Assembly (NCBI RefSeq): GCF_007993755.1
Contig: NZ_CP042467.1
Coordinates: 248,001-312,000 of the forward strand
Source of the DNA: Microvenator marinus
Lineage (GTDB): Bacteria; Myxococcota_A; Bradymonadia; Bradymonadales; Bradymonadaceae
Direction: 5' to 3'
Length of the DNA stretch: 64,000 bases
The position numbers and the translations under genes are program-made. This document shows, piece after piece, positions 1 through 11,782 of the stretch. Position 1 is the first letter of the stretch. The number at the start of each line of letters is the position of its first letter. The notes under the pieces are model-generated. The model had not been told where the DNA came from and ran no database searches. It saw nothing but the letters and a program-made list of their open reading frames with translations.

Positions 1-3000
1 CTCCGGTTCGTGAACGTTTTCTGTAATTCGCTCTAGGATATCGGCCACGTCTTCCCATCGCTCTTCTTTTGCATAGAGGCGTTCCAAGGCGCCGAGCGAG
101 ACAGGATCATTGGGCTCAAGTGTGAGAACTTCGACAAATGCCTCAATTGCGGTGTCTGGCTCATCGACGATGTCGGAGTTCAGCGTCCCGATTTGGCGCC
201 AGTAATCAGCCCGCGTGTGGTCTTCGCCAAAAACGGCCTGAAGCTTGAGGACACGCGTAAGGTTCGTCCAATCCTCGGTGGATTGATAAAGAACTTCGAG
301 AGCTCCAAGCGTTTCGAGGTCAGATTCGTTCTTTTCGAGTGCTGTCTCAAACGCATCGATGGCGTCCAGCGGACGATCCAAGGAATCGTGAAGGAGCGTT
401 CCAACTCGGCGCAAGATACTGCCCGCAACGATGGGGTCTGCGTTCTCAGCCGCTTCTTTGAGCGCGTCTACACAACGTTCTACCTGATCGATTCTCAGCG
501 CGAGATCTTCAAGCTTTTCGCGCCTACCTTCGTCATCCGGGAGAATCTTGACCGCTTCAGCACATGCGTCAAAGGCTTCCTCGTTTCGTCCTTGCTCGGC
601 AAGGAGCTCGGTGATCTCGTCGAGGAGAGCCACGCGTTCGAACACATCGGATTCGTCGTCCTTCCTAACACTGAGGACCGCCACAAGTTCAGCGCTCAAC
701 GCGTTGTCCCGATAATAGGGCTCGGTCAAGCGCCCAAGTGTAACACGAAGGGAAGTAGAGCCGCTTTCCGCCAAGGTTTGATCCCATTCTTCAGCGACGG
801 CCACGAGCTCGTGGTCTGAAGGGTCGTCGATGAAAATCTGGCTAAGTGTGTCCACGCCCGAGAACTGGTCGGCCATTTCGTTAAAACGCAGTCTTGCAAG
901 CTCGACTCTTAGCGCCTTCCGATACTCAGGATCTGAGGCCATATCGGCCTGCGAAGCGAGGTGTTCTCCAAGTTCGTTGAAGGACTCTCTATCTCGGAGG
1001 AGACGCCGAAGTTCGTCGGACGCCTTGCGATGCTCCGGCTCAATGAGGAGCAACTTACGATAGATATCCACGCCAAGGCCCGAGTCAGCGAGCACGTCAT
1101 CACTGATGCTGGCGGCCTCGAGCAGCAGTTTTACCTGCTCGTCAGGGGTTTCCACCAAATCGGCTCGAGCCTGAAGAATCTTGACTAGCTCTTCATGCTT
1201 TCCGAGCTGCCGATAGAGGCGCTCAAGAGCTTCGACGTGCGCGCTATCAAGCGGGTCGTACTCGTACAAAGTTTCCCAGGCGCCGAGAGCCTTTTCCTTA
1301 AGGTTGAGTTGATACTCACGAATCGCCGCAAGGTGGCGCAACAAGTCAAAGCGAGTGGCACTCGCCGAGGCATCTGTGGGCGCAAAGCGCGAGAAAATTT
1401 CTTCGATTTCCACCCATCGATTGAGCTTTGCACCAAGCTGTTCAAGTCGTAGCCAGATCTCGGAGCGCTCAGCGTCGAGCTCAAACTGTCTGCAGGCCCG
1501 TTCAAAGGCTAGCGGAATGTTCTCGGTTCGTTGATAAAGTGGAATGAGCTCGTCGAGGATTTCTGCCTCTTCAAAACGATCTGAAGCCACGGCGCGTCGG
1601 GCTTCTAGCGCTCGAATGAGTTCTTCGGGCCGATCGTAATCTCGGAAGATAGGCTCAATCAATAGTGCGGCTTCGCGTGCCTGCTCGGGTTCAGAGAGCA
1701 GGGTTTCCACAGAAGTCAAAGCGCGTTCGTTTCGGGGATCTTCGGTTAAGACTTCAGCGTAGTTTCGAAGTGCCTCGTCAAAACGCCCTAGTTTCTCGCG
1801 GTTTAGGTCTGCGAGTTCAAGTATCGCATTAAGTCGATTTTCGGGGTCGTTTATCGCACAAACGTTGACTTCGCGGAGCAAGCACTCGTTGACGTCGTCC
1901 CAGCGCTCGTCTTCTCGATAGAGTTCCTTCATACCGCGAAGAGCACGCAGGTGCTCGGGGTCGATATCAAGAATCTCCTGATAGGTCTTACGGGCTGAAT
2001 CAGACTCCCCGAGCGCTGAGCGTTGGACATCAGCAATCTTGGACAGTTCATCAACGAGGTCTTCACGCGCGGCACCACGTTCGGTGAGTACATCGATCTG
2101 GCGCCTGAGCACCTCGATTCTACGCTCGGATTCCCCGCTTTTGTCGAGTACCGACTCCAATTCCCCTAGAAACTCTAGGTCGGAGGGATGACGTTCGGTG
2201 AGTATCTCAAGGTACTTTCTCGAACTCGGCCAATTCTCCAGTTTTACGTATTCTTTGGCAATGAAGTACCAGAGCTGATCTTGGGTGGCGTCGTCGTCCA
2301 CGTCTTTTGAGAGGTCCTCGAGGTTTTCGAGATAGACCTCCATCATATCGGTCTGAGCCGCGAGCTCACGCCCCGCCTCAAGAGCCTCAGAATCAGATGG
2401 GTTGAGCTTAAGTGACTCCAAAGCCCAGGTCAGCGCGTTAGCTTGCTCGCCTCGAGCAATCTCGAGCTCTCGCAGTCGATTTGTAGTTTGAAGCCTGACC
2501 TCTTCCGAATCCGAGTTCTCAAGGATCACTCGGTTCATCGTGATCTCTTTCTCCACGTCGCCAGTCTTCGCGTACCAAGGGAGTAATTCCGTGGCCACTT
2601 CCGTATGTTCCGCGGAATCGCCCTTTGCTTCTTCGCGCAGGGCCTCGAGGCTCATGATGACTCGCGAATCGTCCTCCAGGTCTTCTGCCGCGAGCGTCGC
2701 CATTCGGCGATAAATCGGACGAGGGTCGGATTGGCTCGGAGCGAGGTTATCGAGCAACTCGAAATACACGTCGAGCTTGTCCTGGGCTCGATAGACCTCG
2801 TCAAGACCTTCGAGATCCATCGCTCGGATCAGAGACCCAGTCAAAGACGCAAACGCTTTGACGTGGCCGGGCTCGGTTTCCAATATCTGGCGCCAGATAA
2901 CGATGGCCTCGTCTTTTTGACCCAAATCGTTGTGAAGTATCTGTGCTGCTTCCTCGAGTAGCGAAATCCGATCTCCCTCGGAGAGCTCGGCTCTTCGCTT

Positions 3001-5304
3001 CAAGAGGTCAACGAGGCGCTCAGGCTCATTCGAACGGCGCACCATCGATTCGAGCTCGGCAAGGCTTTCGGCATCTTGAGGGTCGATTTCTAGAATTCGT
3101 TCGAGTACCGGGATCACCACGGCGGGCTCACGAGTCTTTTCCGAGGCCAAGACGCGAATCTCTTTGAGTCGCTTCAACTCGCCTTCTGCATCCTCGAGAG
3201 CAGCTTCTCGACAGAGGATCTCCACCAACGACTTGAAATCACGGCGTTGCTCATAAACTTCTTTAAGTTTTGAGAGGGTAGGGCCATGTGTCGGGTCGAT
3301 GTCCAGGATTCGTTCAAGGAAAGGTAGAGCCTGTGTGACGTTCCTGAGATTGTCCTGCCAAATCGTTGCGGCCTCATCCAGGCATTCGATAGCTTGCGCG
3401 GTGTTCCCAGAGGCAATCGCACGCTCAGCACGCTGCTCCAGAATATGGGAGAGATCGTTGTACCTTCTGCCTGACTCGAGCAGAGATTTCAGTTTAGTGA
3501 AGGCATCTTGGTCATCTGGGTCGACTTCGAGGATCGACTGCAAAGTTTGAATGACCATAGGTTCAAGCCGCAAATGCTCTTCATAGATCCCGGCCATTTC
3601 GTGCAGAAGTTCAAGCTTCTCGGCGCCTTCCTGTGATTCGAGGTCTTCTTTGTAGACATCGATGAGTGCGCTCCACTTTTGATGCGATTTGTAGAGCGTT
3701 CGCAGCTCGTTGTGGGCGTTTTGGTCGTCGGGCACCATACGCTGATAAGATTTCCAGACGTTGATGGCCTTATCGGCACTACCCATCTGGTTTTCAGCGA
3801 GCTCGGCGAGTCGGCGCGTGATCTCGAGTTTTTGGTCGTCGGACTCTGCTTGTTGTTGAACGGAGCTAAGCAAAGCAAAGAGTTTTGGCCACTCTTCCTC
3901 CTGCTCGTACCATTCCTCATAGAACGCGAGCACGGCAGGATGTTCTGGATTCAGGAGCTTTAGCCGTTTGAACCAGTACTCAGCGCGTTCATAATCACCA
4001 AGAACGTTCCAATGCAATCTTGAGATGGCCAACATGGCCGTCTCCTCGCCGTCTTTCTTTCGCAGGCGCTTGAGTGCGTTCTCCAACGTTTCGTCCACGT
4101 CTTTGGACCGCGATTTGACGTCGGGATGCTCGAGAACAAAGTCGTATAGCTCGACGGACTCAGGATTTTTGCTGATTGCTTTGAGCAATTGGTCAAGGCT
4201 TTCGAGGTCCACCTCGCCAGAATCCCCTTCTTGCCGCTTGGCCAGATCTTCTTCGATCTCCTTCTTTTGGATAGGAGTCAGCATCTGAGTGGGTTCGCGA
4301 TCCTCTGGATCGGAATCCTCGTCCAAGTCTTCTTCTTCGGCTTGTTCCTCGGCCTGTTCTTGCTTGGCTGGTTCTTCCTCGGCTTGTTCTTCTTCGGCTT
4401 CTTCACGCGCGTCGGACGTGTCCAAATGAACCGGTGCCATCACGGAAACTACGGAGTCCTGCGGCTCTGGTTCGCGCCCCAAACGGTCCAGAACACCGTC
4501 TCTGAGTGACTGAGCCTCAGGGTTTCTCGCATCCAGCGTTAAAGCTTCTCGAGCCCATTCGAGTGCGCTCTCGAGGTCGCCGCCCTCGCGGAGCGATTCC
4601 CATTTGGCAGCCCGGATGAGCTTCTTGGCGGCTTCCTTTGTGTCTCCGTCCCTGAGAAGCTCGTGGCCACGTTTGACCTCTTCTTGAACTTCGGTGTGAA
4701 GTGAGGATTTGCGTGTGTAGATCTCTTTGAGGTCTGCAGCCAGTGCGTTATTCGAATCGAGCTCGATCGCTTGGTCGAGAACTTCGAGCGCCTTTTTGAG
4801 GTCTCGAAGGTCATCTCCATAAATCTGTGCGGCGCACGTCAAAGTGCGGCTTCGCTCGATAGGCTCCGTTTTAACTTTAAGTTCGAGCTTATAGAGCAAA
4901 ATAATGCGCTCAAAATCTGAACTCTTTCGATAGATCGCTCGCGCCCGATCTAAACATGTGACGTCGGCAGGGAACACCACATACGACTCTTGGTATGCTT
5001 TCATCGCCTCATCACGGCTTCCCGCGTAGTTCATGAGCGCGTCACCGAGGGCCACGAGGAATGGTCCACGTTCTTCAGGTTCTGTGACCTGCTCGCCGAT
5101 GTACTTCATCCTCTTGACAAGATTCGTCCCAAATTCCGGATCGCTCCCGAATTTTGAAGACGCGTCTTGGTAGAGGCGCATGAGTTCTCGCCAGTTTCCA
5201 CGCTCGGCGTAGAGCTCTTGGAGAGCGGCGAAGGTGTCGTAATTGCCGGGTTGTTCCCGCCAGAGAATCTCAAGTTCGTTTAGATCGGTGGCCATCAACT
5301 CCAT
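1..5304 (-). CDS. Giant TPR-repeat protein (3' end outside window)
   Basis: The minus-strand frame is open from the start codon to the window edge, about 1,765 codons, with no stop. The product is almost wholly helical, with repeats of 30-45 residues in which A/L-x-x-L and Y-x-x-I/L patterns precede a D-P-x-x-x-A/D turn (for example ILEIDPQDAESLAEL). This is typical of TPR or HAT-like scaffolds. A very acidic Glu/Ala-rich linker lies near residues 265-300. I see no signal peptide or membrane segment, so a cytoplasmic scaffold is likely. Two in-frame ATGs compete, at 5304 and 5295; the sequence between them contains GGAG, which could serve the second. It is divergent from the tol operon. Large TPR proteins sit beside TolQR-type motors in myxobacterial motility loci, so a functional link is possible but unproven. 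Confidence 0.88.
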   Translation of the reverse strand, partial: MELMATDLNELEILWREQPGNYDTFAALQELYAERGNWRELMRLYQDASSKFGSDPEFGTNLVKRMKYIGEQVTEPEERGPFLVALGDALMNYAGSRDEAMKAYQESYVVFPADVTCLDRARAIYRKSSDFERIILLYKLELKVKTEPIERSRTLTCAAQIYGDDLRDLKKALEVLDQAIELDSNNALAADLKEIYTRKSSLHTEVQEEVKRGHELLRDGDTKEAAKKLIRAAKWESLREGGDLESALEWAREALTLDARNPEAQSLRDGVLDRLGREPEPQDSVVSVMAPVHLDTSDAREEAEEEQAEEEPAKQEQAEEQAEEEDLDEDSDPEDREPTQMLTPIQKKEIEEDLAKRQEGDSGEVDLESLDQLLKAISKNPESVELYDFVLEHPDVKSRSKDVDETLENALKRLRKKDGEETAMLAISRLHWNVLGDYERAEYWFKRLKLLNPEHPAVLAFYEEWYEQEEEWPKLFALLSSVQQQAESDDQKLEITRRLAELAENQMGSADKAINVWKSYQRMVPDDQNAHNELRTLYKSHQKWSALIDVYKEDLESQEGAEKLELLHEMAGIYEEHLRLEPMVIQTLQSILEVDPDDQDAFTKLKSLLESGRRYNDLSHILEQRAERAIASGNTAQAIECLDEAATIWQDNLRNVTQALPFLERILDIDPTHGPTLSKLKEVYEQRRDFKSLVEILCREAALEDAEGELKRLKEIRVLASEKTREPAVVIPVLERILEIDPQDAESLAELESMVRRSNEPERLVDLLKRRAELSEGDRISLLEEAAQILHNDLGQKDEAIVIWRQILETEPGHVKAFASLTGSLIRAMDLEGLDEVYRAQDKLDVYFELLDNLAPSQSDPRPIYRRMATLAAEDLEDDSRVIMSLEALREEAKGDSAEHTEVATELLPWYAKTGDVEKEITMNRVILENSDSEEVRLQTTNRLRELEIARGEQANALTWALESLKLNPSDSEALEAGRELAAQTDMMEVYLENLEDLSKDVDDDATQDQLWYFIAKEYVKLENWPSSRKYLEILTERHPSDLEFLGELESVLDKSGESERRIEVLRRQIDVLTERGAAREDLVDELSKIADVQRSALGESDSARKTYQEILDIDPEHLRALRGMKELYREDERWDDVNECLLREVNVCAINDPENRLNAILELADLNREKLGRFDEALRNYAEVLTEDPRNERALTSVETLLSEPEQAREAALLIEPIFRDYDRPEELIRALEARRAVASDRFEEAEILDELIPLYQRTENIPLAFERACRQFELDAERSEIWLRLEQLGAKLNRWVEIEEIFSRFAPTDASASATRFDLLRHLAAIREYQLNLKEKALGAWETLYEYDPLDSAHVEALERLYRQLGKHEELVKILQARADLVETPDEQVKLLLEAASISDDVLADSGLGVDIYRKLLLIEPEHRKASDELRRLLRDRESFNELGEHLASQADMASDPEYRKALRVELARLRFNEMADQFSGVDTLSQIFIDDPSDHELVAVAEEWDQTLAESGSTSLRVTLGRLTEPYYRDNALSAELVAVLSVRKDDESDVFERVALLDEITELLAEQGRNEEAFDACAEAVKILPDDEGRREKLEDLALRIDQVERCVDALKEAAENADPIVAGSILRRVGTLLHDSLDRPLDAIDAFETALEKNESDLETLGALEVLYQSTEDWTNLTRVLKLQAVFGEDHTRADYWRQIGTLNSDIVDEPDTAIEAFVEVLTLEPNDPVSLGALERLYAKEERWEDVADILERITENVHEPE

Positions 5305-5353
5305 CCGTGCGGAAGTGGTTGAGAAAAGTGATGCTAGCTTCTGAGGCGCGCGG

Positions 5354-5382
5354 ATCGTATCAGACGTATACTAGGGCCGCAA
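5354..5382 (-). promoter_or_regulatory. Candidate promoter of the giant TPR gene
   Basis: On the minus strand a TTGCGG element (5377-5382) is followed after 17 bases by TACGAT (5354-5359), preceded by a TG that would make an extended -10. It lies about 50 bases upstream of the TPR start codon. The match is partial, so this is a suggestion only. Confidence 0.35.
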
Positions 5383-5456
5383 CGCGCGAGTGGTTGACAT
5401 TGCACGGTGAGTTTGGCCCGTGTTAGTAGGAATTGATACTGAATGGAGTGGCATCG

Positions 5457-6191
5457 ATGTTGGAAACAGTGTGGGTGAATCTAGTTCTCGCTCAAAGTGC
5501 AAACCCTACGAAGCCAAAGGGTGTGCTTGAGATTCTGCTGGAAGCAGACGGCGTGGTCATGGGTGTGATCTTCATCCTCGTCGCCCTGAGCGTGGTGTCT
5601 TGGTACATCATTGGCTACAAGGCGTGGTACATGCGACGGGCTCGCGTCGAAACCCAGAAGTTTTTAGAGATCTTCTGGCAATCCAAACGCTTGGACGCGA
5701 TTTACCAGTCCGCTGAACAAACAAGCCGATCGCCGGTCTCCCAAGTCTTTAAGGCGGGCTATATCGAGCTTTCCAAGCTGAAGAGTGCGGAAGGAGACGA
5801 TAAAGAAACGATGCGCACCCAACTCGGTGGCATTGAGAACGTGGAGCGTGCTCTTCGACGTGCGATGACCACAGAAACTACACAGCTCGAAAGTCTCTTG
5901 CCATTCCTCGCGACCGTGGGCTCGAACGCAGTGTTCATCGGTCTCTTCGGTACTGTCTGGGGAATTATGGTCGCGTTCGTCAACATCAACGCCCAAGGGG
6001 CGGCGGGCCTCGATGTGGTTGCAGCCCCGATCGCTGAGGCGTTGATCGTGACAGCAATGGGCCTCGTGGCGGCTATCCCTGCTGGTGTGGCCTACAACTT
6101 TTACGTGACGCGCGTGAACATCATGTCGGCCGAGATGGACAACTTCTCAAACGACTTTCTGAATATCGTGAAGCGACACTTCTTCAAGTAG
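5457..6191 (+). CDS. tolQ: TolQ/ExbB-family proton-channel protein
   Basis: The 244-residue product is an inner-membrane proton-channel subunit that, with TolR, turns the proton motive force into work on the outer membrane. It has an N-terminal membrane segment at about residues 32-55, a cytoplasmic loop containing a GGIENVERALRRAM-like stretch, and two C-terminal membrane helices around ATVGSNAVFIGLFGTVWG and PIAEALIVTAMGLVAAIPAG, the family's diagnostic region. I chose the ATG at 5457, preceded by GGAG nine bases upstream, over an in-frame TTG 24 bases earlier. TolR follows nine bases after the stop. MotA/ExbB paralogues such as AglR cannot be told apart by sequence alone; the tolB gene downstream favours TolQ. 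Confidence 0.93.
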   Translation: MLETVWVNLVLAQSANPTKPKGVLEILLEADGVVMGVIFILVALSVVSWYIIGYKAWYMRRARVETQKFLEIFWQSKRLDAIYQSAEQTSRSPVSQVFKAGYIELSKLKSAEGDDKETMRTQLGGIENVERALRRAMTTETTQLESLLPFLATVGSNAVFIGLFGTVWGIMVAFVNINAQGAAGLDVVAAPIAEALIVTAMGLVAAIPAGVAYNFYVTRVNIMSAEMDNFSNDFLNIVKRHFFK

Positions 6192-6200
6192 GCGCGAGTT

Positions 6201-6701
6201 ATGGGTGCAAAAATTCCAAGCGGCAGGGGGATGGTCTCCGAGATCAACGTGGCGCCAATGGTGGACGTCATGCTCGTGCTTCTCATCATCTTCATGGTTA
6301 CAGCGCCGATGATCGCGAAGGACGAAGAAAAGCGGAAGGTCGATCTGGACCTGCCTGTGACTCGGGAGAACGCCAACCGTATCGATCCCGAGCAAACCGA
6401 CAAGATGATCCTGGAGATCGATGCGGACCTGGTGGTGCGAATCAAAGACGAAGTCATTACGAATTGCACAGAATCGTTGAGTCAAACGAATAAAGATCGC
6501 TTCGAGGTGTGTTTCGACGAGGTAGAGACGAAGCTCGGCCAGAACGTCAAGCTTCAAGAGGATCAGGAGATTTATCTGTTGGCACATACGGACATCCCAT
6601 ACGGTTTTGTGGTGGGGACCATGGCGCGGATTAAACGCGCGGGTGTCAACAAGGTCGGCATGATCACGAATCCCGAGTATTTGGACGAGACCGCGAAATG
6701 A
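6201..6701 (+). CDS. tolR: TolR/ExbD-family protein
   Basis: The 166-residue product is the partner of TolQ: one N-terminal membrane helix followed by a periplasmic domain. The helix (about residues 17-40) carries the conserved proton-conducting aspartate in the APMVDVMLVLLIIFMV motif. The periplasmic part ends in the usual region DIPYGFVVGTMARIKRAGVNKVGMIT, split here around the V-x-x-x-M-A-x-x-K core. It also contains a Cys pair (NC near residue 91 and VCF near 103) that could form a disulfide; that is an inference. It overlaps the next gene by four bases (ATGA), which points to translational coupling. Confidence 0.93.
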   Translation: MGAKIPSGRGMVSEINVAPMVDVMLVLLIIFMVTAPMIAKDEEKRKVDLDLPVTRENANRIDPEQTDKMILEIDADLVVRIKDEVITNCTESLSQTNKDRFEVCFDEVETKLGQNVKLQEDQEIYLLAHTDIPYGFVVGTMARIKRAGVNKVGMITNPEYLDETAK

Positions 6702-7495
6702 GTGCCTCTGCTCAGATCCCAGGGTGGGAGAAGCACGAGGTTTTGACCTCGCATATCGTCATGGGGGTGGTGGTCTCTATCTTGACCCACGGTCTTCTGA
6801 TTGGCGTGGTTGTCTTTGGGACGATGCGCGGTGAGGCAAAGCTGGAAGCTGATATTGAGCCGAAAATGCTCGAGTTTGAAGAGGTCGAGCTGCTCGCATT
6901 GGGAGTTGAGAAGCCTCCCGAGCAGCTGGTCCGGATTTCGAACCCAGAGCCGGCCACCAAGGCGCCTGATGAAATCGTCATTGAACAACCGAACGAGCCC
7001 GTCGTCGAACTCGAGAAACCTGAGCCCGAACCCGAGGCCAAGGAAGACGACAGGAAACGAAAGATGATGGAAGCTTTGAGCGCGCTACATAATCCGAACC
7101 GTCCCACCAACGAGGACGTCCCGGAGGGGAGCGAAGAAGGCGTGATCGGCGGAACCGCCCTCAATTCGATTTTGGGCGGCTACGCGTCCAAACTCGTAGC
7201 CGAAATCACCAAAGAATGGGAAATCCCGGCCACCATCACCGCCGACGAAGCTCGTGGGCTCGCCGACAAAGTCGAAGTCTATGTGCGACTTTCTGAGAGC
7301 GGCAATATCGTTACCTTCCAATTCAGGCGTCGAAGCGGCAACGAACAATTTGACGATAGTATCGAGCGGCGCCTCAAGCGCTTTCAGGTGCAATACGGGG
7401 GAAACAAGCTTCCACTGCCGGAAGAGCCGTCAGCGCGTGCTGCGGTGATTCGGGAAGGTCTTAATTTGAAGAACTGGGAGTACACAGGACTCTAG
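6698..7495 (+). CDS. tolA: TolA/TonB-like energy-transducer protein
   Basis: The 265-residue protein has the layout of TolA or TonB. A short cytoplasmic start is followed by one membrane helix (residues about 19-42). Then comes a periplasmic Glu/Pro-rich stretch (about 50-120) containing repeated PEPEPE-type runs, and a C-terminal domain (about 155-265) with the YVRLSESGNIVTFQFRRRSG pattern of TolA/TonB C-terminal domains. It is shorter than Escherichia coli TolA and lacks a long helical stalk, which is common outside the Gammaproteobacteria. The gene overlaps tolR by four bases, and tolB starts on the base after its stop. The position makes TolA the best name, but the sequence alone would also allow TonB. 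Confidence 0.8.
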   Translation: MSASAQIPGWEKHEVLTSHIVMGVVVSILTHGLLIGVVVFGTMRGEAKLEADIEPKMLEFEEVELLALGVEKPPEQLVRISNPEPATKAPDEIVIEQPNEPVVELEKPEPEPEAKEDDRKRKMMEALSALHNPNRPTNEDVPEGSEEGVIGGTALNSILGGYASKLVAEITKEWEIPATITADEARGLADKVEVYVRLSESGNIVTFQFRRRSGNEQFDDSIERRLKRFQVQYGGNKLPLPEEPSARAAVIREGLNLKNWEYTGL

Positions 7496-8830
7496 ATGAG
7501 TATGAGAATGATGAAATTGGTACAGGGATTGGTGCTCGTGTTCTTTTGTTGCTTTGCGACCATGGCGGGTGCACAGGACGCACCTCCACCGCCTCCCAAA
7601 GGGATTGATATCTCGGTGAAAGGCGGGGCACGCCGTGTCCTCTTACCGATGGCTGTGCCGGATACCTTGGAAGAAGGCAGTACCAAAGGCGCCGCCGCAC
7701 GCGTTCAGGAGACTTTGAGGCGTGACCTCGATCTGGCCGGCCTCTTTAAGGTCTTGCCATCGGATTCGTTTTTTTTCGACCCGTCAAAGGAGGGAATGAA
7801 CGTCACAGATATCAATTTCCAGAACTGGTTTAATGTCGGCGCGCAGGGTTTGATTAAGAGTTCGGCAAAACTCAAAGGGGACTCCGTGGTCCTCGACCTC
7901 CGCCTCTACATTGTGGACAAAGGTGAGCAGGTCAAACTCAAGTACACTCCCGGCCCCGTGGGGCGGGACAAAGTTGCTGACGAAGTACATAAATTTGTGA
8001 ACGCTGTTGTGGAGCACTTCACCGGAACTCCAGGGATTTTTGGAACCCGAGTGGCCTACGTTCAGAAAATGAAAGGCGGAACCAAACAGATTTACGTCAT
8101 GGACATGGACGGGACTAACGCTGGCCGGGTCTCAAAGCACGACGCCATCAATATTTTGCCGACCTGGGGCCCGAATGGTGGCGTCTACTACACGAGTTAT
8201 GCCGACAAGAACCCGGACCTATGGATGGCTCGTGCAGGGAAGGTAAAGAAGGTTTCCTCGAAACGCGGACAAAACTCAGGTGCGGCCTATTGCAACGGGA
8301 AGGTCGCCTTGACGCTCTCTATGGGAGGCGAGAATGCGGACGTCTATCTGGTCAATCCAGAGACGGGCGACGTTGTGAAGCGACTCACGGACCATTGGGC
8401 CATCGACACATCGCCAAGTTGGAGCCCGGACTGCTCAAAGATCGCCTTTGTATCCAGTCGCTCCGGTGGACCTCAAATTTATGTGATGAATGCTGATGGA
8501 TCCGACCAGCGTCGCCTCACATTTCAGGGCACGTACAACACATCGCCTGATTGGTCGCCAAAAGGAGATAAGATCGCGTTCACCGCTCGCGACGAGCGCG
8601 CCCGCTTCGATATCTTCGTCGTTGATTTGGAAGGTGCGATAGAACGTCTGACCCAGGACCAGGGAAACAATCAGGACCCTAGTTGGAGCCCTGATGGCCG
8701 CTACATCATGTTCTCAAGCGACCGCGGCGGCAAAGGCGACCGAATCTGGATGATGACGGACGATGGCGAGATTCAGAGGCTGATTACAACTTCTGGGTCG
8801 GGATATACTTCACCAGTTTGGGCACGCTGA
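7496..8830 (+). CDS. tolB: TolB beta-propeller protein
   Basis: The 444-residue periplasmic protein starts directly after the tolA stop. A signal peptide ends near residue 26 (MAGA-QDA). The N-terminal domain, including LRRDLDLAGLFKVLP, matches TolB_N, and the rest is a six-bladed propeller of PD40 repeats with motifs such as SPSWSPDCSKIAFVSSR, SPDWSPKGDKIAFTAR and DPSWSPDGRYIMFSSD. In known systems TolB binds Pal and outer-membrane proteins and helps keep the envelope intact during division. No pal gene follows; the next gene is a peptidase-fold protein starting on the base after the stop. Confidence 0.95.
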   Translation: MSMRMMKLVQGLVLVFFCCFATMAGAQDAPPPPPKGIDISVKGGARRVLLPMAVPDTLEEGSTKGAAARVQETLRRDLDLAGLFKVLPSDSFFFDPSKEGMNVTDINFQNWFNVGAQGLIKSSAKLKGDSVVLDLRLYIVDKGEQVKLKYTPGPVGRDKVADEVHKFVNAVVEHFTGTPGIFGTRVAYVQKMKGGTKQIYVMDMDGTNAGRVSKHDAINILPTWGPNGGVYYTSYADKNPDLWMARAGKVKKVSSKRGQNSGAAYCNGKVALTLSMGGENADVYLVNPETGDVVKRLTDHWAIDTSPSWSPDCSKIAFVSSRSGGPQIYVMNADGSDQRRLTFQGTYNTSPDWSPKGDKIAFTARDERARFDIFVVDLEGAIERLTQDQGNNQDPSWSPDGRYIMFSSDRGGKGDRIWMMTDDGEIQRLITTSGSGYTSPVWAR

Positions 8831-9712
8831 ATGACGCCAATAAAGAAGAAACTGGACGCGATCGAAGCGGAGCTCGGACGTGCGGTGTTCGTTGTAGCAT
8901 CCGCCCATGAGCGCTTCTTTGAGCCCGACGAGGATGCGATTCGGGTGTTCATGGAGGCTGCGCATCGTCGCTCAGAGAAAGGACGGCCTTTCGAAAAAGC
9001 TGCGCTCCTGCTGATAGGGCAGGGCGGTCATCCGGCGTTTGCTGAAGGTGTTGTCCGCGCCTTGAGGGCATTTTGGCCTGCCTTCGACCTGATTCTTGTC
9101 AGCCGAACACGCGGGGTGGCCACGCTCCTGACATTCAAGGCAGAACGCGTGGTTATGCACCCTTGGGCGAGCGTTGGCGCCTACGATGCTGGCCCAATCT
9201 TAAATGGTCCTTCGAAACTCAGTCCGTCGGTTTGGGATGATATCCCGGCGATGCAAGGGGTTGAGACCGAGGAGCATTTCGCGTCACAACTGGCTCGACA
9301 CCGTCATCACGCCCGGCTTGCCCGCTCGCTAGCTCGACGATGGGCCGGCGACTCTAAGGCGCTCCTCGATTCTCTCTCGGAATACGAGTTGGGTGCGGGT
9401 CTAGGTCTTGGAGCTGATGAGTTGGAAGAGTTTGGGATTAAGGCCGAAATTGCCGAGGATCCTTTGCGCAGTACTGTTTGGGATCTCTACCAGATCTACG
9501 AAAAGGAACTTGGCCTTTTGAAAGAACCCGCACCACGTTATTCGCCGTCAGATATTGCGGATGAGGTGGAGTTTGAGCCGGCCGAGTATTTGAGCGCTGG
9601 AATCGTGGAAACTACCGTTGATGACTTCGTTTATCAGGTGGACACCGGTCGTCCGCATCCCGAGACGGGAGCATTGTTGGGGGAGTGGATGATGGAAAAA
9701 TCAGAAATTTGA
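8831..9712 (+). CDS. SDH_sah/ClpP-fold protein lacking the catalytic Ser
   Basis: This 293-residue protein closes the tol operon and abuts tolB with no gap. Residues about 55-125 resemble the core of the SDH_sah (serine dehydrogenase proteinase) and SppA/ClpP fold: a hydrophobic strand with a GG turn (LLIGQGGHPA), then ILVSRTRGVATLLTFKAERV and the VMHPWASVGAYDAGP segment, equivalent to the VM-P-x-x-LGPIDP signature. Where active members have K-S-A-G-T, this protein has T-R-G-V-A-T, so the nucleophilic serine appears to be glycine 95. There is no signal peptide, so it is probably cytoplasmic. It may be an inactive scaffold or binding protein. The family call rests on motif reading and is moderate. 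Confidence 0.62.
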   Translation: MTPIKKKLDAIEAELGRAVFVVASAHERFFEPDEDAIRVFMEAAHRRSEKGRPFEKAALLLIGQGGHPAFAEGVVRALRAFWPAFDLILVSRTRGVATLLTFKAERVVMHPWASVGAYDAGPILNGPSKLSPSVWDDIPAMQGVETEEHFASQLARHRHHARLARSLARRWAGDSKALLDSLSEYELGAGLGLGADELEEFGIKAEIAEDPLRSTVWDLYQIYEKELGLLKEPAPRYSPSDIADEVEFEPAEYLSAGIVETTVDDFVYQVDTGRPHPETGALLGEWMMEKSEI

Positions 9713-9722
9713 AACTTCGAGG

Positions 9723-9749
9723 TTGCGGGTTCATACGAGTTTGTATACG
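9723..9749 (+). promoter_or_regulatory. Candidate promoter of tRNA-Leu
   Basis: TTGCGG (9723-9728) and TATACG (9744-9749) lie 15 bases apart, just upstream of the tRNA. The -10-like element ends 13 bases before the mature tRNA, which suits a short 5' leader. The spacing is shorter than ideal. Confidence 0.35.
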
Positions 9750-9762
9750 TTCCCTCACCTTC

Positions 9763-9846
9763 GCCGGAGTGGCGGAATCGGTAGACGCACCGGATTCAAA
9801 ATCCGGCGGCCGCGAGGCTGTGCGGGTTCAAGTCCCGCCTCCGGTA
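9763..9846 (+). tRNA. tRNA-Leu (anticodon CAA)
   Basis: A class II tRNA of 84 bases. The acceptor arm GCCGGAG pairs with CTCCGGT (one G-U pair), with A as discriminator. The anticodon arm CCGGA / TCCGG encloses the loop TTCAAAA, giving anticodon CAA, which reads TTG leucine codons. A long variable arm (GGCCGCGAGGCTG region) and the T arm GCGGG-TTCAAGT-CCCGC are clear. The 3' CCA is not encoded. An intrinsic terminator begins three bases downstream. Confidence 0.95.
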
Positions 9847-9848
9847 TG

Positions 9849-9886
9849 AAAAAGCCCCGTTCTTTAACAAGACGGGGCTTTTTTCG
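9849..9886 (+). terminator. Intrinsic terminator after tRNA-Leu
   Basis: AAAGCCCCGT-TCTT and AAG-ACGGGGCTTT form a strong GC-rich hairpin followed by a run of T residues. It ends tRNA transcription and perhaps read-through from the tol operon. Confidence 0.9.
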
Positions 9887-9961
9887 TTTTTGTCCGTCTC
9901 TTTTCACTTGGTCAATATGGTGTGTGTCCAGTAGTCTCCGTGTGCTATGACGAGGTGTATG

Positions 9962-10135
9962 ATGTGGAGATGGCTCATCTTTGCGATGATTTTTGGGGCT
10001 TGCGAAAAACCCAAAGAGAAACCTTATGTGGATAAGAAGAACGAAGAGCTCAAGGAGCTGAAGTCGGACCTTCAAGGCACGATGGATGACCGTGATAACT
10101 TCGAGAAACCTGAACAACCGGCAAAGGAAGAATGA
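9962..10135 (+). CDS. Small putative lipoprotein
   Basis: A 57-residue product with a lipoprotein signal: MWRWLIFAMIFGAC, where the lipobox F-G-A-C would be cleaved before the cysteine at about residue 14. The mature part is short, highly charged and probably helical (KKNEELKELKSDLQG). I chose the ATG at 9962, six bases after GAGG; in-frame ATGs also occur at 9947 and 9959. It overlaps the next gene by four bases (ATGA). I do not recognise a family. Confidence 0.65.
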   Translation: MWRWLIFAMIFGACEKPKEKPYVDKKNEELKELKSDLQGTMDDRDNFEKPEQPAKEE

Positions 10136-10584
10136 GAATGCGAGTACTAATCACGCTAGCTTTGTTGAGCATGCCAGTGTTGGGCTTTGCTTATCAACCG
10201 TTTACCAGCGTTCAAAGCGTCTGTGAGACGTGTCCAAATCCCAAATCAGACGTGCTTACGTTGAATGATGGGAACAAGATTCGCGGAAGCATTATCGGCG
10301 AGAATACAGCGTTCTACGTGATGCTGAAGCATCTTGAGGTCCGTGCCATCCAGAAGACGGAGGTGCAGACCGTGGAATACGCCGGTGGCACAAAGCCTGG
10401 ATTTTTGGCGTCTCAAGATCAAATCTTGCTGAAGACCGGACACGTGCTTAACGGCGAGATTACTGAGGACAAAGAGAAACCGGCGTTGTTCCAAGTGCGT
10501 TCCTCTCACGGCAACGTGTCTTTTGTGGTGTTTAAGTCCGAAGTTTCTAAGGTCTATAAGAAAGGCCTTGAGTCGTCGTTCTAG
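10132..10584 (+). CDS. Secreted protein with two similar small beta domains
   Basis: The 150-residue product begins with a signal peptide (cut near LGFA-YQP). Two segments look alike: residues about 40-83 (VLTLNDGNKIRGSIIGEN ... IQKTEVQTVEY) and about 102-142 (ILLKTGHVLNGEITED ... VFKSEVSKVYK). Each starts with a hydrophobic strand, a DG/GH turn and a G-x-I strand, and ends with a K-x-E-V-x-x-V strand, so an internal duplication of a small SH3-like or Sm-like barrel is plausible. It is coupled to the small lipoprotein upstream. Function unknown. Confidence 0.75.
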   Translation: MRMRVLITLALLSMPVLGFAYQPFTSVQSVCETCPNPKSDVLTLNDGNKIRGSIIGENTAFYVMLKHLEVRAIQKTEVQTVEYAGGTKPGFLASQDQILLKTGHVLNGEITEDKEKPALFQVRSSHGNVSFVVFKSEVSKVYKKGLESSF

Positions 10585-10630
10585 TCCACAAGTACGTTGA
10601 TCCTTTAGGTTTGAGAATAACGAGGTTTCC

Positions 10631-11194
10631 ATGACTCAAGAGCGCCGCAGTTCGGTGAGGGTAAGAAGTTTATTGCCATGCGCGATGCGCCGGGTAGAGG
10701 CCGAGGAAGTGCCTGTAGTTGAGGCCAAGATCTTGGACGCCGCGGTTCTTGAGGCTGAAAGCGTAATGAGCGACAAGGCGGACTGGAGCGAGCGAACCGA
10801 CGACATCCCTAAAGAAACCGTCTTTTTGCTCAAGGAAATCCGGGCGCTTCGCCAACAGATTGCAGGCCTTCAGACGCTGGTGGAGCGGCAAGGCGGCGTG
10901 GCGCTTCAACCGCGATGGGTTGTTATCAATGATAACGGGCTTTTTCTCGCCAAGGACGAGTCCGAGTCTTGGTCGATCGGCGATTTGTGCGAAATCCGTG
11001 TTCAGATTCCAAGTCTTCAAAATCCCGATATCGTCGCATTGGGTGAGGTGGTTCGCGTGGGTGATGGAGATGACGGACCCGGGGTGGCGATCATTTTCCG
11101 GCATATTTCTGAGGCGCATTCCAAGGCGATTCTTCGCTATGCACTTCGCCGAGAGCGCCAAGGTGCACGTTCCTTACGATTCAAGTTCGAATAG
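10631..11194 (+). CDS. PilZ-like domain protein
   Basis: A 187-residue cytoplasmic protein preceded by a GAGG ribosome site. The N terminus carries ERRSSVRVRS, like the RxxxR half of the PilZ c-di-GMP site. A predicted helical coil covers about residues 55-90 (KEIRALRQQIAGLQTLVERQ), and the C-terminal half has a PilZ-like beta barrel (WVVINDNGLFLAKDE ... ALGEVVRVGDGDDGPGVAIIF). The second PilZ motif, normally D/N-x-S-x-x-G, reads N-D-N-G here without the serine, so c-di-GMP binding is doubtful. The order (RxxxR, coil, barrel) suggests a helical insertion within the domain. Confidence 0.7.
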   Translation: MTQERRSSVRVRSLLPCAMRRVEAEEVPVVEAKILDAAVLEAESVMSDKADWSERTDDIPKETVFLLKEIRALRQQIAGLQTLVERQGGVALQPRWVVINDNGLFLAKDESESWSIGDLCEIRVQIPSLQNPDIVALGEVVRVGDGDDGPGVAIIFRHISEAHSKAILRYALRRERQGARSLRFKFE

Positions 11195-11197
11195 ACC

Positions 11198-11782
11198 ATG
11201 TTACATCTTGCACAGGACACGGATCCCGGCTGGTTCGAGCGGATTCGGGATAGTTTGGACACGATTCTGGTGGACCACTGCCATCTTGAGAAAAGGGCAG
11301 CCTCCAACGCATTGAATCTTATCTTCAGATACACCGGGTGTGAAGGTATTCCTCGCGAACTCTCAGAGGTAGTGCGCGAGGAGATGGAGCATTTCACCCA
11401 GGTCCTTGACATCCTCGATGCCCGTGGAATTGAGTTCACGCGTCTGCCTCCGAGCCCTTACGCGACAGCGTTGCAGGCGGAATTGCGAAAGAACGAGCCG
11501 GGTGCCTTCTTGGATAAGCTCTTGATGGCGGGCTTTATTGAAGCTCGTAGTTGTGAGCGGTTCAAGATTTTGAGTCAGGGCTTGGCGGAGGACGAGCCTG
11601 AGCTGGCGGCGTTCTACCGCGAATTGATGATCGCCGAGGCCCGGCACCATCTGCTCTACACGAATATCGCTCGTCGTTTTTACTCCGACTCCGTCGTCAA
11701 AGCTCGCCTCAAAGAACTCGCGCCCGCTGAAGTAGCCGCTCTCAAGGCTGCCGGTGAGGTTCCGCGTTTGCACAGTTGGTAG
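11198..11782 (+). CDS. miaE: tRNA 2-methylthio-N6-isopentenyladenosine hydroxylase MiaE
   Basis: The 194-residue protein matches MiaE, a non-haem di-iron monooxygenase that hydroxylates the isopentenyl group at tRNA position 37. Iron-ligand motifs are visible in order: H-C-H-L-E-K (about residue 30), E-E-M-E-H-F (about 63), E-A-R-S-C-E-R-F (about 110) and E-A-R-H-H (about 145). The family's C-terminal R-L-H-S-W/F end is also present. It starts three bases after the PilZ-like gene stops, so the two are probably co-transcribed. No miaA or miaB is nearby. Confidence 0.9.
   Translation: MLHLAQDTDPGWFERIRDSLDTILVDHCHLEKRAASNALNLIFRYTGCEGIPRELSEVVREEMEHFTQVLDILDARGIEFTRLPPSPYATALQAELRKNEPGAFLDKLLMAGFIEARSCERFKILSQGLAEDEPELAAFYRELMIAEARHHLLYTNIARRFYSDSVVKARLKELAPAEVAALKAAGEVPRLHSW

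Follow-up and report, generated by a model that had tools for sequence, protein, structure and literature searches.

Directly downstream of tolB in Microvenator marinus lies a gene, here called X, that was first noted as encoding a protease-like protein without the catalytic serine. The question raised by this locus is what kind of protein X is, and whether it belongs to the Tol-Pal system. The window, which is the whole stretch of DNA analysed, is 64,000 nucleotides in length, and the distribution of X was surveyed in 57 genomes of the class. The features of the locus are listed in Table 1.

Table 1. Features of the tol locus and of gene X, in positions of the window.
Feature	Position	Strand	Basis
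tolQ	5433..6191	+	Pfam/NCBIfam
tolR	6201..6701	+	Pfam/NCBIfam
tolA-like	6698..7495	+	Pfam/NCBIfam
tolB, stop codon adjoins X start	7496..8830	+	Pfam/NCBIfam
gene X, 293-aa soluble pseudo-protease, SDH-type/ClpP fold	8831..9712	+	ORF, profiles, predicted structure
ClpP-fold domain of X, residues 1-211	8831..9463	+	span of structure matches
Gly65-Gly66, aligned with GG invariant in serine-bearing relatives; kept in f1	9023..9028	+	
Gly95, column of catalytic serine (S-x-G-T motif)	9113..9115	+	joint alignment
Asp119, 20/20 f1 and 12/12 serine-bearing relatives	9185..9187	+	joint alignment
Ala189, column of His invariant in serine-bearing relatives	9395..9397	+	joint alignment
C-terminal region of X, residues 212-293: helix and small beta domain; motifs EVEF..A, DTG.P.P...G.W	9464..9709	+	
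tRNA-Leu(caa), downstream of X	9763..9846	+	

The tolB ORF ends with a TGA at 8828-8830 and the ATG of X follows at 8831, leaving 0 bp between the two genes, as the preliminary description had stated. The promoter scan gave no sigma-70-type site in positions 4900-10200, and terminator-like sites in the same interval number 7 against a shuffle mean of 5.1. The best 19-residue hydrophobicity mean is 1.23 in the window protein and 2.1-2.6 in TolQ, TolR, TolA, and TolB. Across 30 X proteins the highest such mean does not exceed 1.70. Because it has no strongly hydrophobic stretch, X is most likely located in the cytosol.

The AlphaFold2 model of X, based on a 13-sequence alignment, has a mean pLDDT of 86.4 and a pTM of 0.85. 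A Foldseek search of the PDB with this model returns ClpP at the top (E 1.3e-5, probability 1.00, TM 0.42 for the query and 0.62 for the target). The VIA comparison also aligns the model with ClpP chains, with Z up to 12.5, 174 residues aligned, and an rmsd of 4.4. These matches fall within model residues 1-211, and the predicted fold of this part is alike to ClpP at an identity of 8-14% among the matches listed. X differs from ClpP in lacking the catalytic serine and in having an extra C-terminal domain.

The X sequence of the window alone has no match in Pfam at E up to 1. Its only match in NCBIfam is a chance-level thiolase match (0.027) far under the cut-off, and a PDB search with the single sequence returned nothing useful. 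Genomes with X fall into the family of the window (f1), a neighbouring family (f2), and a third family (f4). Alignment A1 has 21 members, composed of the window X, 19 other f1 proteins, and one f2 row (G023), with the G008 fragment left out. PF01972 (SDH_protease) is matched by 10 of the 21 members, with a best value of 2e-8, and NfeD1b_N is matched by 7. In the genome search, the X of G004 passes the PF01972 cut-off. When the A1 profile is compared by hhalign with one built from nine SDH proteins that have the serine, one of which scores 374 bits to PF01972, the probability is 99.1% with an E of 1.8e-18. The profile of the serine-bearing relatives matches structures of the NfeD protease PH1510 (3bpp and others) at 5e-8 via the S-A-G-T motif. 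The A1 profile gave a doubtful LysR-type match in the PDB at 0.0018, and its match to a chain of PH1510 was no better than E 1.9.

On these comparisons, the profiles place X in the SDH-type/NfeD/SppA branch. Together with the predicted ClpP fold, this bears out the SDH_sah/SppA-like core that had been proposed for the protein. The core of X is alike to that of SDH_protease by profile-profile comparison, but X contains neither the serine nor the invariant histidine and has its own C-terminal beta domain. The PH1510-N protease has the S-A-G-T motif in common with the serine-bearing relatives of X; X itself lacks the serine and also lacks a strongly hydrophobic segment.

The active-site columns were read from a joint alignment of 45 proteins, which includes 20 f1, five f2, and five f4 proteins, three proteins of a further family (f3), and 12 serine-bearing relatives. 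The G008 protein, a contig-end fragment that begins past the serine site, was left out. The 12 serine-bearing rows leave out G161, G309, and G094, in which the serine motif is visible, and are kept apart from the three f3 proteins (G026, G032, and G035), in which the serine sits one residue earlier. In the serine column, all 12 serine-bearing relatives have Ser. The f1 proteins contain Gly in 19 of 20 cases and Ala in one (G005), and the f2 proteins contain Gly in all five. The replacement of the catalytic serine by glycine, claimed from the window sequence, is thus found across f1 and f2, and falls on Gly95. The TRG string first pointed out is peculiar to the window; relatives have, for example, DG, SG, NG, or GLGT at this site, and only the Gly is conserved. 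In f4 the column contains Ser in three of five proteins (G030, G036, and G041), Val in one, and Pro in one. In the three f3 proteins it contains P, A, and G.

A second column distinguishes the groups. It contains His in 12 of 12 serine-bearing relatives, and in none of the 20 f1, five f2, five f4, or three f3 proteins. Given this invariance, the histidine is probably catalytic in the serine-bearing relatives. Since it is missing from all of f4, the three f4 proteins that contain Ser also lack His. Two of these three (G030 and G036) are tol-linked, and the contig of G041 is too short to tell. The f3 proteins of G026, G032, and G035 (loci L143, L105, and L104) are SDH-like with no Tol gene in the fetched stretches, and possibly represent a further non-catalytic branch.

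Other residues that are invariant in the 12 serine-bearing relatives are retained within f1. In the joint alignment G65 is present in 20 of 20 f1 proteins, G66 in 19 of 20, and D119 in 20 of 20. The GG pair is presumably an oxyanion-type loop, judging from what is known of ClpP. Neither the GG pair nor the Asp is constant in f2 and f4, where they vary or are lost; no single binding site is therefore kept across the whole group.

The most conserved motifs of f1 sit outside the ClpP-fold domain, in residues 212-293. They consist of E245-V246-E247-F248, A251, D271-T272-G273, P275, P277, G284, and W286. Predicted alone, the C-terminal region has a pLDDT of 81 and a pTM of 0.58, and its model finds nothing better than E 0.76 in the PDB. 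In the 57 genomes, a profile of this region finds the 21 X genes and, in G002, a fragment of 36 aa at a contig end; no other match is better than E 0.03. The C-terminal ends of the f2 and f4 proteins are different, and the DTG string is missing from their rows. The high conservation, the restriction of the profile to the X genes of f1, and the different ends of f2 and f4 point to a putative binding surface particular to f1. An aspartic protease, as might be read from the DTG string, was considered and rejected. The string lies within a predicted strand, it is missing in f2 and f4, and the C-terminal model has no significant PDB match.

X is under purifying selection. The dN/dS values are 0.06-0.30 in eight of nine pairs and are rough, because dS is above 1 in five of the eight; the ninth pair is saturated. 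No stop codon is present inside the X match in any of the 21 f1 genomes. In G007 a longer match takes in one TAG, which lies upstream of the chosen start.

X is present at one locus in 21 of 21 f1 genomes and five of five f2 genomes, and it occurs in five of six f4 genomes, with none found in G027. The stretch that contains X also has tolB upstream of it in 17 of the 21 f1 genomes, all five f2 genomes, and three of the five X-bearing f4 genomes. The place of X in the tol locus is thus conserved in 25 of 31 X-bearing genomes. Four of the other six genomes (G006, G008, G039, and G041) have contigs that end too soon to tell. In G001, an f1 genome, X is detached from tol, and the 2.9 kb that precede it contain none of the tol genes. 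In its sister G012, X is probably detached as well, as no ORF of at least 120 aa is present in the 857 bp examined upstream. Because G001, and probably G012, keep X away from tol, membership in the operon is not needed for X to be retained.

Outside f1, f2, and f4, no X gene was found in most tol-bearing genomes of the class. The search also gave weak matches outside the class; twenty regions in all were fetched, of which five came from f4 or the f4 TolB locus. The f3 matches in G029, G051, and G055 were left out of the reading. Where the surroundings of serine-bearing relatives were fetched, the stretch contains no TolQ, TolR, TolA, or TolB match, although some of these stretches are short; these relatives differ in this from the tol-linked X. 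Among the relatives found in the contig search are a metagenome genome of the Bradymonadaceae and Lujinxingia vulgaris. The genus Lujinxingia is part of the Bradymonadales. Predators have been described in this order (PMC7460792).

The tree recovers f1, f2, and f4 each as a supported group, and f2 joins with f4. In the free tree f1 is not placed beside f2 and f4, but a tree that unites the three families in one clade is not rejected by the AU test (p-AU 0.355). A clade of f1, f2, and f4 with the three f3 proteins is likewise not rejected (0.287). The orthology of f1 with f2 and f4 rests on position and profile. That the tol-linked form arose once is suggested by gene position, and the tree does not prove it.

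X had been described as occupying the usual place of pal. This does not hold for the ancestral arrangement. A pal gene is present between tolB and X in eight of the 17 linked f1 genomes, in five of five f2 genomes, and in the three linked f4 genomes. It is absent from this position in the other nine linked f1 genomes, the window's included. The genome of the window contains OmpA-type Pal candidates elsewhere, one of them beside a CpoB-like gene (G000:C1 around 834,545). Replacement of pal by X was therefore rejected; the wider gene order is tolB-pal-X, with pal missing from the operon in the lineage of the window.

The distance between X and its upstream neighbor was measured from start codons chosen by the analyst. 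In f1 it is −4 to +49 bp in 14 of the 17 linked genomes, and 105, 124, and 192 bp in the others. In f2 it is −4 to +4 bp in four of five genomes and 809 bp in the fifth. The f4 genomes have approximately 860-890 bp between pal and X. In G033 this interval contains a Ppx/GppA phosphatase gene (L103:1687-2607), and the gap is about as large in G030 and G036.

The reading that best accounts for these results, with a chance somewhat better than even, is that X is a cytosolic pseudo-protease that serves as a binding or scaffold protein and is probably co-translated with Tol-Pal. The pseudo-protease part is well supported. With the serine and a second invariant residue, the histidine, both lost, X is most likely without catalysis and cuts no peptides. 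Purifying selection, the conserved groove glycines, and the conserved new domain suggest a binding protein. What suggests a role in Tol is the position of the gene. X would be translated together with the Tol-Pal proteins, its start lying at, near, or overlapping the stop codon of tolB or pal. A peptide or a partner would be held by the groove elements (GG, Gly95, and Asp119) and the C-terminal beta domain. X may form an oligomer, as other ClpP-fold proteins do, and could serve the Tol-Pal machine from the cytoplasm as a scaffold or regulator. A more specific form of this proposal is rather unlikely. It makes X an order-wide, lineage-specific cytoplasmic subunit of Tol-Pal, in which the dead groove and the C-terminal domain would bind either a division protein or the cytoplasmic face of the TolQRA motor, and X would thereby control the constriction of the outer membrane from within the cell. 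Of the pseudo-protease in the tol operon first described, the ClpP/SppA-like fold, the loss of Ser, to which that of His is now added, and the persistent linkage stand; the three f4 proteins with Ser, and the f1 X found off tol in one genome and probably two, do not fit a strict version of it.

X could also be a non-catalytic housekeeping protein that is unrelated to Tol and merely co-transcribed with it. The detached copies in G001 and probably G012 agree with this, as do the absence of X from most tol-bearing genomes outside the three families and the f3 relatives, which lack Ser in the column and have no Tol gene in their fetched stretches. A neighbor without a role in Tol is somewhat unlikely, given linkage that extends across three families, that persists with or without pal between the genes and in f4 despite the extra gene or gap, and that often involves overlapping or adjoining codons. 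The site can also be read as that of a crotonase-like enzyme. In crotonases the equivalent position is Gly, followed about 23 positions further on by an acidic residue. Gly95 would then resemble the oxyanion hole of enoyl-CoA hydratase, and Asp119 would act as acid/base on a thioester, rather like YbgC. GG65-66, Gly95, and Asp119 are kept together in f1, the profile of the serine-bearing relatives weakly reaches the enoyl-CoA hydratase structure 1uiy (6.1e-4), and one serine-bearing relative weakly matches ECH_1 (0.0073). The E. coli tol-pal operon does contain a gene for a cytosolic thioesterase, ybgC (PMC7391070, PMC12204202). Such an enzyme is nevertheless improbable here. In f2 and f4 the GG and the Asp vary or are lost, and in the family-profile search at E 0.1 not one of the 21 proteins of A1 matches the ECH family. 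The genome of the window also has YbgC-like genes of its own, all under the family cut-off, one about 13 kb before tolQ (G000:C1:240156-240503, 108 bits) and two elsewhere.

Two further readings start from the altered active site. A peptidase with a displaced nucleophile might use the Thr or Ser found three residues past the Gly column in 12 of 20 f1 proteins (T98 in the window), or T272 of the DTG string, which is nearly invariant. The other eight have Ala, Gly, or Val at residue 98, and the points raised above against an aspartic protease apply equally to T272, making a displaced nucleophile highly improbable. The loss of Ser and His could mark a decaying protease gene, which is scarcely credible where dN/dS is well below 1, none of the 21 f1 genomes has an internal stop, and the C-terminal motifs are the most conserved of all; decay was rejected on dN/dS. 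The binding or scaffold protein remains the preferred reading.

A precedent for ClpP-fold subunits without catalysis is found in ClpR, the non-catalytic subunits of the chloroplast Clp (PMC6508832). ClpR shares one core with active ClpP, whereas X has no such partner known. Within Tol-Pal, X is comparable to YbgC and CpoB, which are encoded by accessory genes of tol-pal, YbgC being cytoplasmic (PMC7391070). Their families are unrelated to X, and YbgC-like and CpoB-like genes are present elsewhere in the genome of the window. Replacement of YbgC by X is unsupported; YbgC-like genes, under the cut-off, are located elsewhere in four of four genomes searched.

Tol-Pal is described as an inner-membrane motor and transducer with periplasmic and outer-membrane parts, and YbgC, the sole cytoplasmic product of the E. 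coli operon, as an acyl-thioesterase of unknown function (PMC12204202). If X acts in Tol, this conserved protein of Bradymonadales-type bacteria would give the system a further cytoplasmic component, through which control of Tol from the cytoplasmic side could be probed. Next to ClpR, X would also be a further pseudo-enzyme with the ClpP fold. In the main text of a 2025 study of tol-pal organisation, the words "bradymonad" and "protease" occur 0 times and "peptidase" once, in the legend of the figure on TolB relatives (PMC12204202). The literature search returned no title on gene X among the matches listed, and no paper of the library searched names both "tol-pal" and "bradymonad".

The surroundings of the tol locus contain several further genes. 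The frame adjoining tolQ in the window is not ybgC but a very long divergent one (1-5304 on the minus strand) of at least 1,768 aa, which runs off the window and appears TPR-like by eye. All eight f5 genomes and the f6 genome G031 have two TolB matches each, which share a contig in seven of these nine; three of the five f2 genomes also have two. On the 3' side of the tol locus, positions 10132-11782 contain a 150-aa ORF followed by a PilZ protein and MiaE. Among 22 relative loci, the 150-aa ORF is matched in 10, MiaE in nine, and the PilZ protein in four.
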